Source: Magnetococcales bacterium
GTDB taxonomy: Bacteria; Pseudomonadota; Magnetococcia; Magnetococcales; JADFWU01
Direction: 5' to 3'
NCBI GenBank assembly: GCA_015234045.1
Contig: JADFWU010000042.1
Location: forward strand, 1-28,534
Length of the DNA stretch: 28,534 nucleotides
The notes under the pieces were generated by a model. That model did not search any database, was not told the DNA's origin, and saw nothing but the letters and a program-made list of their open reading frames with translations. Of this stretch, positions 13,487 to 21,135 are shown piece by piece. Every line of letters starts with the position of its first letter. The first letter of the stretch is position 1. The position numbers and the translations under genes were made by a program.

Positions 13487-14131
13487 TTACGGTTTAATAT
13501 TGACTGCCTCGGTCACTTCTTTGGCTTTCTGTTTGGCGACTTTTTCCTGTAGTTTAATCAAAAGTGCTTCGATGCTTTCATTACGAAGCAGCCGATTGAA
13601 CTGACTACGGTAGTTGGAAACCAAACTCACACCTTCGATAATGACATCAAACACCCGCCATTGATCACCATCGGCGAGCATTCGATAGGAGAGTCTGAAC
13701 TCCTGTCCTTTGGAAATAACCGTGCTGTCTACTCGGCGGGTTGCGGCTGACTCTTCAACTTCTTTGTCAAAGCGGAAAACTTCGCCTTGATAGTCAACGA
13801 TTTTATCCAAGTATGCGGTTTCCAGAACCTCTTTGAACAGGTCGATAAACCGGTTTTTTTGTGAGTCGTTAAACTTACGCCAGGGGCGGCCGATGGCACC
13901 TGTTGACATCTGTTCAAAATCAAAGCGATTAAAGATCACCTGGCGTAGTTTTTCCCGCTGGGCGATTCGGCCTTCAACCTCTTTATCAGCAGGTTCCTGA
14001 AGCACGGTCAGTGCCTCTTTAACTGTTGCTTCTATTTGCTCCATTGCGGAAGGCACAGCAAATGCTGTGCTGTGATACGCTACAGCGAGAAGTAAAGCGA
14101 TTAAAAATACTCTACTGAATTGGATGATCAT
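13487..14131 (-). CDS. mlaC: Periplasmic phospholipid-binding protein MlaC
   Basis: A 214-residue protein. The signal peptide ends AFA near residue 25. The body is a MlaC/Ttg2D domain, with motifs such as NRFDFEQMSTGAIGRPWRKF, VDSTVISKGQEFRLSYRML and WRVFDVIIEGVSLVSNYRSQ. MlaC shuttles phospholipids through the periplasm between the outer-membrane MlaA complex and the inner-membrane MlaFEDB transporter. Here it is the last gene of mlaE-mlaF-mlaD-mlaC on the minus strand. A GGAGG lies just upstream of the ATG. It ends in the terminator shared with soxZ. Confidence 0.94.
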   Translation of the reverse strand: MIIQFSRVFLIALLLAVAYHSTAFAVPSAMEQIEATVKEALTVLQEPADKEVEGRIAQREKLRQVIFNRFDFEQMSTGAIGRPWRKFNDSQKNRFIDLFKEVLETAYLDKIVDYQGEVFRFDKEVEESAATRRVDSTVISKGQEFRLSYRMLADGDQWRVFDVIIEGVSLVSNYRSQFNRLLRNESIEALLIKLQEKVAKQKAKEVTEAVNIKP

Positions 14132-14226: not shown

Positions 14227-14676
14227 CTATTGAATAGCACCATGAATAAACTGGCTGATCAGCTCTTCAAAATTGATAGCAGGTTCAGTATTGATCAGTT
14301 TATCACCGTTTTTCAATACAAGATCTGATGCACCAGGACTGATTTTAACATACCGATCACCAATCAATCCTTTGGTGCGGACAGAGGCTATAGCATCGTC
14401 CTGGATACTGACATGAGGATCTATCAACAAGATAACGTCGGCTTCATAATCTTCCATATCAAGGGAAATACTATCAACGCGACCGACTTGCACGCCAGCG
14501 ATTTCAACATTGGCTCCGTTTTTAAGGCCGGATACCGACGAGAAACGGGCGTGTATGGCAATAGAGTTACCGCCCATCAGTTCCATGCGAGCCAGTTTTG
14601 TTGAGAGCCATCCCAAAGCGATGAGGCCGGTCAGGACAAAGAGACCAACGGCCAGTTCCAAACGATACTGTTTCAT
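14227..14676 (-). CDS. mlaD: MCE-domain lipid transport protein MlaD
   Basis: A 149-residue protein with one N-terminal membrane helix (LAVGLFVLTGLIALGWL, residues about 8-24) and a single MCE domain: ARFSSVSGLKNGANVEIAGV, QVGRVDSISL, then VRTKGLIGDRYVKISPG. MlaD forms a hexameric ring on the MlaFE transporter in the inner membrane and hands phospholipid to or from MlaC. Length matches short MlaD proteins. It lies 89 bases after mlaF and 95 bases before mlaC on the minus strand. An AGGA about 5 bases upstream supports the start. Confidence 0.94.
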   Translation of the reverse strand: MKQYRLELAVGLFVLTGLIALGWLSTKLARMELMGGNSIAIHARFSSVSGLKNGANVEIAGVQVGRVDSISLDMEDYEADVILLIDPHVSIQDDAIASVRTKGLIGDRYVKISPGASDLVLKNGDKLINTEPAINFEELISQFIHGAIQ

Positions 14677-14765: not shown

Positions 14766-15779
14766 TTACATCACCTTGACAGGGCCATCCAGTTCACCAT
14801 TGATAAACTGTTTGATGACTGGGTGTTTCGAGTTGACGATATCAATGGATGGTCCAGCGGCAAGTACTTTGCCTTCGTGAAGTACGATGCCGTGATGTGC
14901 CCAGTTGAAAATCTCGGGAACTGCATGACTGATTACCACCATTGTATAGCGGGTACGCATATATGTGTCGCAGATCAAGTAGTGTATTGAGCGTTCGATA
15001 ATTGGGTCGAGTCCTGCGGTGGGCTCATCAAGCATGATGATCGAAGGCTGGGTGACCATGGCACGCGCAAGGGCAACACGTTTGACCATGCCACCACTGA
15101 GTTCTTCCGGGAATTTTCCACCCATATTGGGTAGATGTACTTCCCGAAGGGCTTTCTCAACGCGGCGCCGGATTTGATCTTCCTTCATTTTGGTTTTTTC
15201 CCGCAGAGGGAAAGCGATATTGTCGAACACGCTCATGGAGTCAAATAGAGCACCGCTCTGAAACAGCATGGAAAATTGCTGTCTAACCTTATTAAGTTGT
15301 GCATTGTTGAGCGTTGTGATGTCCTGGTCACCAATCCAAACGGAACCACTGTCGGGTTTCATTAAACCGATCATATGCTTCAGGCTGACAGATTTGCCGC
15401 CACCACTCAGACCGATAATAGCGGTGATTTTCTGGTTGGGAATTTCCAGATTGACATTATCCAGAATCCGGCGACCATCAAGTTCCTTCACCACATTTTC
15501 AAAGCGGATAATGGGCGCACATTCTCGGCTGCGCTGGTACTCCTGGCGTTCCTGATTCAGTTGTCTGCGCAGACAGTCCAACAGATCATGTTGGGTGATA
15601 TAGCCGAGAGAAACCAGGGCTTCACCGATCAGATCAGTATCGCTTTCCAGCTGATGGCTTAGTGCCTCTTCCACCTGCTGTTCAGTGACCAGACCTGCTT
15701 TGACCAGGAGAATACCAATCTGCCCAAGCTTGATGGCTTTGTCGGTGGTGGAGAGTGTTTGTGTCGTTGTTGCAGTCAA
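14766..15779 (-). CDS. mlaF: MlaF ABC ATPase with an N-terminal MshEN-like domain
   Basis: A 337-residue protein, about 70 longer than normal MlaF. The ATPase part (about 90-335) has Walker A GLSGGGKS (123-130), the signature LSGGMVKRVALARAM, Walker B IIMLDEPTAGLDP and an H-loop His in VVISHAVPE. It powers the lipid transporter with MlaE and MlaD. The extra N-terminal part contains two 24-residue repeats, residues 20-43 (QIGILLVKAGLV... to Q43) and 50-73 (LIGEALVSLGYI... to Q73). Both follow the MshEN motif xxGxxLxxxGxxxxxxLxxxLxxQ (Val for Leu at one site in the first). The usual first Arg is Gln or Leu. The start is TTG; the next in-frame Met lies inside the ATPase, so the extra domain belongs to this gene. 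Confidence 0.92.
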   Translation of the reverse strand: MTATTTQTLSTTDKAIKLGQIGILLVKAGLVTEQQVEEALSHQLESDTDLIGEALVSLGYITQHDLLDCLRRQLNQERQEYQRSRECAPIIRFENVVKELDGRRILDNVNLEIPNQKITAIIGLSGGGKSVSLKHMIGLMKPDSGSVWIGDQDITTLNNAQLNKVRQQFSMLFQSGALFDSMSVFDNIAFPLREKTKMKEDQIRRRVEKALREVHLPNMGGKFPEELSGGMVKRVALARAMVTQPSIIMLDEPTAGLDPIIERSIHYLICDTYMRTRYTMVVISHAVPEIFNWAHHGIVLHEGKVLAAGPSIDIVNSKHPVIKQFINGELDGPVKVM

Positions 15780-15846: not shown

Positions 15847-16683
15847 TTATAACATCAGTGCGGTGATGAAGTAGTCACTCACCAAAATTAATACTGAGCA
15901 GAGAACAACAGCTGATGTCATGGCGGAACCGAGTCCTTCAGCTCCACGCTGAGTAAAATAGCCCTTGAAGGTACATATCCAGGCGATGATCAAACCAAAG
16001 CAGACGGATTTGATCAAACTGACGGTGATGTCCTTAGCCACAATCGCTGTTTCAATGCCACCAAAATAGGTGCCTTGACTCAGTCCCAACAGTTGAACAG
16101 CAACCAGATAACCGCCGTAGATACCAACGACACAGAAGATCACATTCAATAATGGCAGACTGATCAACGTGGCTTCGATGGCAGGTGTGACCAGAAGTTT
16201 CATGGAGTTGATACCCATGGTTTCCAGTGCGTCGATCTGTTCAGTGACGCGCATCATACCTAGCTTGGTTGTCAGTGCGGAGCCTGCGCGGCCTGTGACC
16301 ATGATGCCGGATAACACAGGGCCAAGTTCACGAATAATACTGGCGGCCACAGCAGGCCCGAGCATTGCTTCTGAGCCGAATCGAGATAGCGTGTAATAGC
16401 CCTGAAGAGCCAATACCATTCCAACAAAGGCACCAGTCAGTATGATAACAAACAGAGAGCGGATACCAATAAAATGGATCTGCGCCATGAGCGTTCGAGG
16501 CCGAAAGGGCGGCAGAACCATTTGTTTGATTGCCGCCAGTAGAAAAATAAACATGCATCCCATTTGATGCACGGTATTTAAACAATATTCTCCAAGAGCA
16601 CGGATAGGCTCCAGTAAAGAAGATTGTTGAGGATTGGATGCAGAAGGCGTTGCAGCCATGAGCGTACCTAGTAATTTATTCAT
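15847..16683 (-). CDS. mlaE: Phospholipid ABC transporter permease MlaE
   Basis: A 278-residue inner-membrane protein of the MlaE/YrbE family. About 20 N-terminal residues are polar. An amphipathic segment and several membrane helices follow, with the family signatures TGAFVGMVLALQGYYTLSRF, IRELGPVLSGIMVTGRAGSA, EQIDALETMGINSMKLLVTP and a GAEGLGSAMTSAVV end. It forms the membrane core of the MlaFED transporter. It is the first gene of the minus-strand mla operon, so the order is E-F-D-C rather than the F-E-D-C order of E. coli. Two ATG starts (16683 and 16659) are possible; neither has a strong ribosome site. mlaA lies divergently upstream. Confidence 0.94.
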   Translation of the reverse strand: MNKLLGTLMAATPSASNPQQSSLLEPIRALGEYCLNTVHQMGCMFIFLLAAIKQMVLPPFRPRTLMAQIHFIGIRSLFVIILTGAFVGMVLALQGYYTLSRFGSEAMLGPAVAASIIRELGPVLSGIMVTGRAGSALTTKLGMMRVTEQIDALETMGINSMKLLVTPAIEATLISLPLLNVIFCVVGIYGGYLVAVQLLGLSQGTYFGGIETAIVAKDITVSLIKSVCFGLIIAWICTFKGYFTQRGAEGLGSAMTSAVVLCSVLILVSDYFITALML

Positions 16684-16847: not shown

Positions 16848-16889
16848 TGTGATACAAAATGTACTGCCTAAATGGTCAGAGGATTTGAC

Positions 16890-17630
16890 ATGACGGTCAC
16901 CCGCACCTGGATATTCTGCATTCTTTCATTTTTATGGATCATGGTCACGCATCCAGTTTATAGCAATCCGCCTGAACCGGTGGATCTTTGGGGTGATATG
17001 GATGCTGCCGAAGAGGCGGTATCCATTTCTGACCCGTTGGAGCCATTAAATCGTCTGATGTTCACGGTGAACGATAAACTCTATTTTTGGGTGTTGAAGC
17101 CTGTGGCCCAAGGGTATAGCGCATGGGTGCCGGAGGGTGGTCGCATTGCGGTGGACAACTTTTTCCACAATCTGGCGATGCCGGTTCACTTTGTCAATGC
17201 ACTGCTCCAAGGAAAGATTGGCCAAGCTGCGACAGAGGTCGGACGTTTTGGATTGAATACAGTTTTTGGTTTGTTTGGTCTGTTTGACGTGGCTGATGAA
17301 CATTTTAACATGAAAAGTGCTGATGAAGATTTTGGCCAGACCTTGGGACACTATGGTCTGGGTGAAGGGTGTTATATCGTCTGGCCTCTGTTTGGACCTT
17401 CCTCGCTTCGGGATTCGGTTGGTTTGGTGGCAGATGCCTATGTCCATCCACTCAGCTATGAACCAGAACATGAAAATGATCGTCTGGCACTTCGCGCTTT
17501 TGATCAGGAAAACGGTGTTTCCTTGAAAATAGGACTCTACGAGGGAATCAAAAAAGATGCCATCGATGATCCTTATCTGGCTCTCCGTGATTTCTGGGTA
17601 CAAAATCGGCGTGCCCGTGTTTCTGAATAG
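16890..17630 (+). CDS. mlaA: MlaA/VacJ-family outer-membrane phospholipid-removal protein
   Basis: A 246-residue protein from ATG 16890. The MlaA/VacJ domain (about 45-235) is clear: DPLEPLNRLMFTVNDKLYFW, VPEGGRIAVDNFFHNLAMPV, GRFGLNTVFGLFGLFDVA, DFGQTLGHYGLGEGCYIVWP, then LFGPSSLRDSVG. MlaA pulls misplaced phospholipids from the outer leaflet of the outer membrane and hands them to MlaC. The signal sequence (WIFCILSFLWIMVTHPVYS) ends like a normal signal-peptidase site. I see no lipobox, although E. coli MlaA is a lipoprotein. GAGGA lies 7 bases before ATG 16890; an ATG at 16872 lacks such a site. Divergent from mlaEFDC. Confidence 0.92.
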   Translation: MTVTRTWIFCILSFLWIMVTHPVYSNPPEPVDLWGDMDAAEEAVSISDPLEPLNRLMFTVNDKLYFWVLKPVAQGYSAWVPEGGRIAVDNFFHNLAMPVHFVNALLQGKIGQAATEVGRFGLNTVFGLFGLFDVADEHFNMKSADEDFGQTLGHYGLGEGCYIVWPLFGPSSLRDSVGLVADAYVHPLSYEPEHENDRLALRAFDQENGVSLKIGLYEGIKKDAIDDPYLALRDFWVQNRRARVSE

Positions 17631-17725: not shown

Positions 17726-18469
17726 ATGAGAAATCACAGCGTTTGTGTCAATCGAATCAGCAGAGCGATAGTGATATGTGTGGTATTTCTATTGGGCGGT
17801 TGTACTTCCATGACCATGGAGGAGTTCCAACAGGCTGCTGATGAGTTTCAGTTCAGCGATATTGCCAAGAGCGATGTCAATCTGGTGGTGGAGGTTCATC
17901 AACAGGAGGTGATGGCTTCACTTCGCAAGCTGATGGTTAAGATGTATCGACGTAATCCGCGTGAATTCAAGAAGGCGGGCTTGGCCTATACGGAAGCGCA
18001 GATTGAGTCCTATGTTGCGGCGTTGTTTGATACTGAACATGATTGGCGTTTTGCAGAACTGGATTACCGCAAAAATATTGACAGCATACACCTTGCCTTT
18101 AATCCACGCTATCAGGGCGACCGCGTTTTTGCGTTGTTCGTGGGTTTGGGTTCCATGATCATGACCTCTTACAATGATAAGCGGGAGTTTTTTGTCCTTG
18201 ACGATCTGGATGCACAGAAACTCTATAACAGTGCTCGAAATGTTGAAATTGCCATTTGGAAACTCAATCATATCCGCGATGAACAGGGTGCGTTGCTGTT
18301 ATTGAGTAACGAGGATGGCGGTTTGGTTCGAAATTTCAGTTTTGAACGGTTGGCGGGTAAGGTGATTGCGCTTCAGGATGCCATGTCCAAGGTCGTGGCG
18401 ACCAAGAGTAAGCGCATTATTAAGGATGCTATTCAGTTTATCGCCTCAAAGGTGTTTCTGCCGATTTAG
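17726..18469 (+). CDS. Predicted lipoprotein of unknown function
   Basis: A 247-residue protein. A long signal sequence ends in a clear lipobox, LLGGC, with the lipidated Cys near residue 26. The residue after Cys is Thr, with no Asp retention signal, so sorting to the outer membrane is likely. The rest is helical and charged, with VEVHQQEVMASLRKLMVKMY, RRNPREFKKAGLAYTEAQIE and a hydrophobic stretch VFALFVGLGSMIM near residue 135. I do not recognise a named domain; similar lipoproteins of unknown function are known to me from other proteobacteria. It follows mlaA by 95 bases on the same strand, so co-transcription and an envelope role are possible, but this is inference. Confidence 0.75.
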   Translation: MRNHSVCVNRISRAIVICVVFLLGGCTSMTMEEFQQAADEFQFSDIAKSDVNLVVEVHQQEVMASLRKLMVKMYRRNPREFKKAGLAYTEAQIESYVAALFDTEHDWRFAELDYRKNIDSIHLAFNPRYQGDRVFALFVGLGSMIMTSYNDKREFFVLDDLDAQKLYNSARNVEIAIWKLNHIRDEQGALLLLSNEDGGLVRNFSFERLAGKVIALQDAMSKVVATKSKRIIKDAIQFIASKVFLPI

Positions 18470-18653: not shown

Positions 18654-19901
18654 ATGGACGACCTCATGAAACTGTTCCAGATAATCCTGTTGGGTCTTTT
18701 GGTTATATTTCAGGCCAGTAGTGTTTCTGCTACTCCTGAAGATGCGTTGGATCGCATTCTTTCTCTGGCAGACCAGGAGAAATATCAAGAGGCAACGGAT
18801 CAGCTAGATCGGTTTTTGCACACCTATCCAACAAATCCTCAAGGTCAATTTTTGCATGGTTTGCTGTTAACTCATATGGGTAAACACAAAGATGCGATAC
18901 GCATTTTCAAACAATTGACCGAAGCCTACCCTGAATTGCCGGAACCCTATAATAATCTAGCGGTTCTCTACGCTGAACAAGGCGATCTGGAGCAGGCAAG
19001 AATGGCGCTGTTACGGGCCATTAAGACTGATCCGGTATACAGCACAGCGTTGGATAATTTGGGCGATATCTATGCTTTGATGGCCACCAGTGCCTATACT
19101 AAAGCATTGAAAATGAGCAAGGATAGTGAAGAAACCCGCGCCAAGCTTAATTTGGTCAATCAGTTGACCAATCGCGGCGATGGAAATCACAATAGTGGTG
19201 TGATTGGTGCGTTTAAACGCAGTGAAAAGACACAACCGTCAGCAGCTAGAGTAGCGCATAAATCAGAGATCAAATCCGCTTTGGTTACATCCAGTTCGCC
19301 CACACCCATACCGGTTCATAAGAGCATACAAAAGCCAGTTGAATCAACAAAAACAGCTGAGATCAAACCAGCAACTCAATCTCTGGTACTCAGTCGTACA
19401 CCGCCTGTTTATCCAGGGAAAGCACAGAAGCTTGCACCGGTTGTTTCTCCACGAAGAGTCGTACAGGCACCAACACCTGCACCAGCCATGAAGCCGCCGG
19501 TTCCAAAACCGGTTCAGCGCAGAGTGGTGGATAAGGCTGCCCAACAACAGCAACTTTTGAGACAGGAGATCCAAAATATGGTCTCCCGATGGGCGACTGA
19601 TTGGTCGGCTCAAAAAATATCTGGCTATACCAGTCACTATGCCCCAAATTTTCGGGGTATGGATGCCGAAACACGGCGCGTTTGGGAAAAGAAACGCAGT
19701 TGGGTGCTAAGTCGTCCCAAGTATATCCGCGTTCAAGTGTCAAACCTCAAGACTGTCTTGCGTGGAAATGATCAGGCTGAAGCGACCTTTATGCAGGATT
19801 ATCGTTCAGACCGTTATCATGATCGGGTGTCCAAAACGCTATTTTTGCAGAAAAAAAAGGGACGCTGGAAAATAGTTCAGGAACGTTCAAATGGAGGATG
19901 A
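18654..19901 (+). CDS. Periplasmic TPR protein with C-terminal NTF2-like (Cds6-type) domain
   Basis: A 415-residue protein. A signal peptide ends SVSA near residue 26 (an ATG at 18666 would shorten it by four). TPR-type repeats follow at about 35-170 (DALDRILSLADQEKYQEATD, FLHGLLLTHMGKHKDAIRIF, NNLAVLYAEQGDLEQARMAL, ALDNLGDIYALMATSAYTKA). Next comes a proline-, lysine- and threonine-rich linker of about 130 residues. The end is an NTF2-like domain (about 305-415), with RWATDWSAQKISGYTSHYAP and FMQDYRSDRYHDRVSKTLFL. This TPR plus Cds6-like layout occurs with L,D-transpeptidases, and here the next gene is one, overlapping by 11 bases. A role as its periplasmic partner or scaffold is inferred. 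Confidence 0.85.
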   Translation: MDDLMKLFQIILLGLLVIFQASSVSATPEDALDRILSLADQEKYQEATDQLDRFLHTYPTNPQGQFLHGLLLTHMGKHKDAIRIFKQLTEAYPELPEPYNNLAVLYAEQGDLEQARMALLRAIKTDPVYSTALDNLGDIYALMATSAYTKALKMSKDSEETRAKLNLVNQLTNRGDGNHNSGVIGAFKRSEKTQPSAARVAHKSEIKSALVTSSSPTPIPVHKSIQKPVESTKTAEIKPATQSLVLSRTPPVYPGKAQKLAPVVSPRRVVQAPTPAPAMKPPVPKPVQRRVVDKAAQQQQLLRQEIQNMVSRWATDWSAQKISGYTSHYAPNFRGMDAETRRVWEKKRSWVLSRPKYIRVQVSNLKTVLRGNDQAEATFMQDYRSDRYHDRVSKTLFLQKKKGRWKIVQERSNGG

Positions 19902-21135
19902 CCTTCAAATAGTCAAACGCGCAAAAGGTGGTTTTATTCACCTGTTTGCTCTGATATTTTTGTGTTTTTCGCATGCTGTTCTGGCCTCTAATCCTCCTGC
20001 GGTTGATATTCTTAAATTGAGTAATGCCGACATTAAAACAGCCCAGCATGAACGGCTGTTTATTCAAGGTATTCAAACGATTGGTCAGGGGCATATTGCA
20101 GTTGCCTTGCAGCAGTTTGCAACGTTGACCACTGAAGCACCTGATTTTCGATTGGCGCAATTGATCTACGGTGATCTACTATTGGCGCAAGCCCATCCAT
20201 TGTCTGGATTTGGCAATGGTGCGTTAGCCAATCAGAGATTGAATAGTTTGCTGGAAGAGGCGCGATCTCGTATTCGTCACTGGAGTGCGCACAATTCTGC
20301 CAATCGTATTCCCGCCTCTTTGCTACATTTGTCACACAGTCAAGAAAAAGTGGTGGTGGTGGATGTTGAAAATGCCCGACTCTACCTTTTTCACAATGAA
20401 GAGGGTGTGCCGGATCTGGTGGCAGATTACTATGTGTCCAGTGGTCGCAATGGTGCTGAAAAGCGTTGGGCAGGTGATAAAAAGACACCGGTTGGTCTCT
20501 ATTTTGTGACAGATTATCTGCCGGGCAACAGTTTACCTGATTTTTATGGATCAGGAGCACTACCGTTGAACTATCCCAACGAATGGGATAAGCGACATCG
20601 TCGTACTGGTTCTGGTATCTGGTTGCATGGTACGCCGACCAATACCTACAGCCGTCCACCACGGGCCAGTGATGGCTGTGTGGCATTGACCAATCTGGAT
20701 TTTGAGTTTCTTGAAGAGCAAGTTGGTGTTGGTACACCGGTGATTATTACCGAAAATATCGAATGGCTGGACCCTTTGGAGTGGAAACAGCGCAAAGAGA
20801 TATTCTTAGATCAATTTCAGAGTTGGAGCCATGATTGGCTTAGCCACGATCTGCATCGTGCCATTCAGCACTATTCTGAAGGGTTCCACAATCATCGACA
20901 CGATTTCAAAGAGTGGCAGCAGGTGATGCCTGATATGTTTAACCAATGGCCTGCCCATACTGAATTGCCCTCGGATCTCAGTGTCATCGGTTATCCTGGT
21001 GAAAAAGATCTGATGGTTGTGACATTTTCACAGAGTGACGTTTCAAATGATCTGCCGCGCCCGGTATTGAGAAGGCAGTATTGGCAGATGGAATCGGTTG
21101 GTGCTTGGAAGATCGTCTATGAAGATCAAGGGTAA
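19891..21135 (+). CDS. L,D-transpeptidase (YkuD domain) with C-terminal NTF2-like domain
   Basis: A 414-residue secreted protein. A signal segment spans about residues 14-33 (IHLFALIFLCFSHAVLAS). A helical region carrying short repeats follows. The YkuD catalytic domain (about 150-290) contains VVVVDVENARLYLF and has catalytic His246 in LHGTP and Cys263 in SDGCVALTN. The C-terminal 110 residues form a Cds6/NTF2-like domain resembling the end of the preceding protein. Such enzymes make 3-3 peptidoglycan cross-links or attach or cleave proteins at meso-diaminopimelate. Which of these applies is unknown. The start overlaps the TPR gene by 11 bases, so translation is probably coupled. A YafK-type enzyme is another label I considered. 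Confidence 0.92.
   Translation: MEDDLQIVKRAKGGFIHLFALIFLCFSHAVLASNPPAVDILKLSNADIKTAQHERLFIQGIQTIGQGHIAVALQQFATLTTEAPDFRLAQLIYGDLLLAQAHPLSGFGNGALANQRLNSLLEEARSRIRHWSAHNSANRIPASLLHLSHSQEKVVVVDVENARLYLFHNEEGVPDLVADYYVSSGRNGAEKRWAGDKKTPVGLYFVTDYLPGNSLPDFYGSGALPLNYPNEWDKRHRRTGSGIWLHGTPTNTYSRPPRASDGCVALTNLDFEFLEEQVGVGTPVIITENIEWLDPLEWKQRKEIFLDQFQSWSHDWLSHDLHRAIQHYSEGFHNHRHDFKEWQQVMPDMFNQWPAHTELPSDLSVIGYPGEKDLMVVTFSQSDVSNDLPRPVLRRQYWQMESVGAWKIVYEDQG

Follow-up and report, generated by a model that had tools for sequence, protein, structure and literature searches.

The window, meaning the whole stretch of DNA analysed here (28,534 nucleotides of contig JADFWU010000042.1 from a Magnetococcales bacterium), carries mlaF within an mlaEFDC operon that mlaA adjoins, each neighbour being assigned with Pfam. 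The genes, and the features within mlaF, are as follows:

13487..14131, minus strand: mlaC, periplasmic lipid carrier (PF05494, 2.6e-44)
14227..14676, minus strand: mlaD, with MCE domain (PF02470, 4.9e-21)
14766..15779, minus strand: mlaF, an MshEN_N-like domain plus an MlaF-type ABC ATPase, 337 aa, predicted TTG start (ORF, translation)
14769..15515, minus strand: ABC ATPase domain of MlaF, residues 89-337 (PF00005, 6xbd, model)
15516..15593, minus strand: helix 4 and extension with conserved ER..Y, residues 63-88 (single-sequence model, conservation)
15561..15632, minus strand: MshEN motif II, residues 50-73, LIGEALVSLGYITQHDLLDCLRRQ (motif pattern, NF053729, alignment)
15651..15722, minus strand: MshEN motif I, residues 20-43, QIGILLVKAGLVTEQQVEEALSHQ (motif pattern, NF053729, alignment)
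15847..16683, minus strand: mlaE permease (PF02405, 2.1e-76)
16872..17630, plus strand: mlaA, outer-membrane lipoprotein, divergent from mlaE (PF04333, 3.4e-66)

The gene is a genuine mlaF, by its ATPase matches and its mlaE, mlaD and mlaC neighbours. Pfam finds ABC_tran (PF00005, 4.4e-32), a PDB search finds E. coli-type MlaF (6xbd, 7.4e-52 over residues 95-335), and a full-length model, with alignment depth in the ATPase part only, superposes on 6xbd with an rmsd of 1.6 A. Against PRK11831, the NCBIfam MlaF model, the protein scores 209 (5.6e-62), below an equivalog cut-off of 441 that was presumably set for MlaF of the enterobacterial type. The ABC domain is about 40% identical to that of MlaF from E. 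coli, A. baumannii and P. aeruginosa (6xbd, 7d06, 7ch8), with the same LSGGM signature and the same mlaE, mlaD and mlaC neighbours, but unlike these MlaFEDB proteins the window MlaF is some 75 residues longer at its N-terminus, lacks the C-terminal handshake and is encoded in an operon without mlaB. Beside mlaA lies a putative lipoprotein gene (17726-18469, plus strand) for which no Pfam family matched. Two overlapping plus-strand genes nearby (18654-19901 and 19891-21135), a TPR protein and YkuD L,D-transpeptidase pair, each carry a Cds6_C NTF2-like domain at the C-terminal end (Pfam), and this common end suggests a shared partner or a domain duplication.

The N-terminal region holds two MshEN motifs, at residues 20-43 and 50-73 with a spacer of 6, exactly where a sequence-only reading of this DNA had placed them (its span, 15555-15728, corresponds to residues 18-75). 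Within the N-terminal 89 residues a relaxed form of the motif occurs at positions 20 and 50, and among 200,000 composition-preserving shuffles a single motif turned up in a fraction of 1e-5 and the double motif in none. The NCBIfam model NF053729 ("c-di-GMP_motif, MshE-related") gives the protein 51 bits against a cut-off of 38 (E 9.4e-14) and matches all 20 order members scanned; phmmer against the PDB retrieves MshE (5htl, E 1.4e-6), and a PDB search with the order's N-terminal profile retrieves PilF (2.9e-22), PilB (1.4e-13) and MshE (2.9e-13). The Pfam MshEN family, which the same reading had put forward as a test, gave a negative answer: PF05157 has no match in the MlaF protein, and a search of the genome yields three other loci and not mlaF. 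The Pfam test alone would thus have missed the domain. The negative result fits a missing C-terminal subdomain and not a missing domain. Full MshEN spans residues 1-145 and includes the alpha/beta subdomain MshEN_C, for which MlaF has neither a PF05157 match nor room, since the first strand of its ABC domain starts at residue 89 in the full-length model. MshEN_C is not needed for binding in MshE, where isolated MshEN_N binds c-di-GMP at 0.35 uM (PMC5013675), and we therefore limit our claim to the MshEN_N subdomain.

The strongest test of this identity is one independent of homologues, for which AlphaFold2 was run on the window sequence alone with no alignment. It predicts four helices (residues 11-27, 33-43, 51-58 and 63-86) with a mean pLDDT of 73.9, mostly 86-90 within the helices. 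The top Foldseek match is the c-di-GMP complex of V. cholerae MshE (5htl; prob 1.00, rmsd 1.1 A, 55 columns, 40% identity), followed by the c-di-GMP complexes of T. thermophilus PilF GSPII-B (8pdk, 8pfa, 9gl5). The E-values are modest owing to the small size of the domain (best 0.03), and the first seven rows are all of one family with prob >= 0.96. By VIA the Z-score is 8.3 for 5htl and 7.1-7.6 for PilF GSPII-B, with MshEN-type chains spanning 5.7-8.3 against 3.9 for the first unrelated chain; the matches include the N-terminal domain of X. citri PilB in complex with a PilZ protein (7lkm, 7lkn). The structure prediction that had been proposed as a check thus returns a four-helix MshEN_N bundle with MshE nearest, and the curated HMM, the PDB profile search and the alignment-free structure together bear out an MshEN-type identity for the N-terminal subdomain only.

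This MlaF is found in 39 of the 48 genomes of the order, and a survey of the kind suggested earlier finds the fusion in 36 of those 39; the N-terminal domain is covered across 12 families, in one case split over two contigs. Judging from this distribution of sequences, the MshEN domain on MlaF looks ancestral in the order. In the remaining three genomes (G003, G031, G037) MlaF starts after the N-terminal domain, and because these belong to two families there must have been at least two losses. Their MlaFs (L172-L174) have lost helices 1-3 and retain helix 4 with ER..Y; in the order alignment E77 is invariant and Y81 nearly so. Eight of the nine genomes without this MlaF also lack a match to MlaE, including three of family f11 (G010, G018, G023), in which neither MlaE nor MlaF is matched at the thresholds used and the transporter appears to have been lost. 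Outside the order, none of the matches listed from some 250 further genomes in the phylum sample has MshEN on MlaF, and the MlaF matches listed from those genomes start at or near the ATPase domain. A scan of contigs with the MlaF alignment likewise gave, among the matches listed, only loci that the N-terminal profile marks as domain-less, a scan from which near relatives may be missing and which is no measure of spread beyond the phylum.

Does the domain bind c-di-GMP? The published contacts are the backbone of Gly3, aliphatic triads at positions 2, 17 and 21, Gln24, and stacking at position 1 (PMC5013675, PMC11731258). All of these are kept in the window MlaF except position 1: the pocket reads I2 G3 V17 L21 Q24 in motif I and I2 G3 L17 L21 Q24 in motif II, with aliphatic substitutions only. 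At position 1 the Leu of motif II fits the extended consensus of Arg, Lys or Leu (PMC11731258), whereas the Gln of motif I does not. The sequence-only reading was right that the usual first Arg is replaced in both motifs, and its suggestion that binding could thereby be lost is weakened by two precedents: changes to Arg9, Asp12 or Gln32 of MshE cost at most about fivefold in affinity (PMC5013675), and PilF GSPII-B, whose position-1 residues are Lys and Leu, binds c-di-GMP at 6 nM (PMC11731258). These published cases, which concern position-1 residues other than Gln, Pro or Ser, indicate that loss of the first Arg need not abolish binding. The 38 GGDEF domains encoded in the same genome make it very likely that c-di-GMP is produced, and by analogy with MshE and PilF we consider its binding by the window MlaF likely. 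Among 34 fused relatives, Gly3 is kept in all of motif I and in 33 of motif II, Leu1 of motif II is present in 31, and Gln24 is present in 26 (motif I) and 24 (motif II); position 1 of motif I is mostly Pro or Ser, and the spacer reaches 12 residues, compared with 6 in the window and 5 in MshE. With Gln24 missing from about a quarter of relatives, binding is perhaps not kept throughout the order and may have been partly lost within it.

On balance we favour a model in which c-di-GMP, bound by the N-terminal bundle, adjusts the activity of the MlaF motor; the binding, the allosteric coupling and the direction of the effect are what we infer. Residues ~11-86 would fold as a four-helix MshEN_N bundle holding one c-di-GMP, with the guanine faces stacked on the aliphatic triads I21/L66/L70 and I51/V36/L40, the guanine edges meeting the backbone of G22 and G52, Q43 and Q73 contacting phosphate and ribose, and Leu50 forming a hydrophobic lid over the ligand. 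In PilF GSPII-B the first turn of helix 1 unwinds and the subdomains reorient upon ligand binding (PMC11731258), and by analogy the most economical route would be a similar change passed to the ATPase via helix 4, which is predicted to continue into the first strand of the ATPase domain. Such a ligand-induced change at helices 1 and 4 could alter MlaF ATPase dimerisation or the engagement of MlaE, and this in turn would shift the rate of phospholipid transport between the inner and outer membranes. A point against the model is that, in vitro, c-di-GMP had little effect on the ATPase activity of MshE (PMC5013675).

In E. coli the known handle on Mla activity is MlaB. There, MlaB contacts the helical subdomain of MlaF and a C-terminal extension that belongs to the neighbouring subunit; assembly requires MlaB and the extension alike (PMC7367683). 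We find neither of these E. coli-type features here: no MlaB (STAS) gene occurs in the window operon, no STAS domain is detected in mlaE by Pfam (PF02405 is the sole family), and the window MlaF ends at GPVKVM, without the extension, which is absent from all 21 aligned MlaFs of the order. Among 11 control operons a STAS gene lies within ~3.5 kb of mlaF in six, and the MlaF of each of the six carries the extension. With MlaB missing from the operon and the extension from the protein, the domain may offer another route to assembly or control. One version of this idea, which we hold only tentatively and below even odds, is that direct c-di-GMP control through MshEN_N has taken over the regulatory and assembly role of MlaB and the handshake.

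It is also conceivable, if rather unlikely, that the MshEN_N fold persists without any nucleotide sensing, as a structural or docking module that does the work of MlaB and the handshake by steadying MlaF dimers or their grip on MlaE. The missing STAS gene, the pairing of extension with MlaB in the controls and the assembly requirement in E. coli would all be accommodated by such a module, as would the survival of helix 4 with ER..Y after deletion of helices 1-3 and the predominance of Pro and Ser at position 1 of motif I. Against it, Gly3, which is required for ligand binding in MshE, is almost perfectly kept, and the Gln24 contact is mostly kept. Replacement is also unnecessary, as two control MlaFs (L194, L198) do with neither MlaB nearby, nor extension, nor MshEN, and no STAS gene is seen to have been gained in the operons of the domain-less relatives. 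The existence of such MlaFs means that substitution is not obligatory, and they, with a nearby STAS gene in only 6 of the 11 controls, weaken any general rule that MshEN replaces MlaB.

Improbable, in our judgement, is a bundle with a different cyclic dinucleotide as its ligand or a protein, for instance a diguanylate cyclase or PilZ, as its partner, an arrangement that would anchor the transporter at a local hub of signalling. MshE does bind cGAMP weakly (PMC5013675), NfrB acts together with DgcJ (PMC8669469), and the PilB-PilZ complexes appear among the structural matches, but the model and pocket are closest to c-di-GMP binders and the operon contains no cyclase gene. Finally, the notion that the N-terminal segment is not translated within MlaF, to which the sequence-assigned TTG start might lend some weight, can hardly be right and is countered by a fused frame that is open in 36 genomes of 12 families, by motif conservation at the protein level and by a codon periodicity resembling that of the ATPase part, which together support translation of the segment.

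Viewed against known systems, MlaF with MshEN joins familiar parts in a new way, and the combination is conserved across the order. MshEN fusions have been described for kinases, receivers, HD-GYP, CheA and glycosyltransferases (PMC8669469, PMC5013675), and our search of the open-access literature turned up no paper describing MshEN attached to MlaF or to another ABC ATPase, or linking c-di-GMP with MlaF. The two 24-residue motifs, the four-helix bundle, the aliphatic triads, Gly3 and Gln24 are shared with the MshEN_N of MshE (5htl) and PilF GSPII-B (8pdk), the latter also having Leu at position 1 of motif II; unlike in those proteins, MshEN_C is missing, the bundle sits on an ABC ATPase instead of a secretion or pilus ATPase, motif I begins with Gln, and the spacer is 6 instead of 5 residues. 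A functional precedent is E. coli NfrB, an inner-membrane envelope enzyme controlled by its MshEN domain (PMC8669469), but NfrB is a glycosyltransferase and has MshEN at its C-terminus. OpuCA-type ABC ATPases also have a cyclic-dinucleotide receptor domain inside a transporter ATPase (PMC5919688), the ligand in MlaF being a predicted one; in OpuCA, however, the receptor consists of unrelated c-di-AMP-binding CBS domains and serves osmolyte uptake in Gram-positive bacteria. A built-in c-di-GMP receptor, if that is what MlaF has, would link the lipid balance of the outer membrane to the signal controlling motility and attachment, and c-di-GMP would gain a new class of output. Within this single order, relatives that are fused, deleted or Mla-free provide a natural test set.

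Two further loci in the order are worth recording. In genome G001 (C9; L176, 2482-3720) there is a second MlaE-type locus with a longer N-terminal region that looks, by eye, like a STAS-like fusion to MlaE. Separately, many genomes of the order, the window's own among them (C62:25045-26700; elsewhere L150-L158), have a STAS_2 gene that stands alone in the neighbourhood of an ORF whose MshEN-like motifs occur as halves or in pairs.
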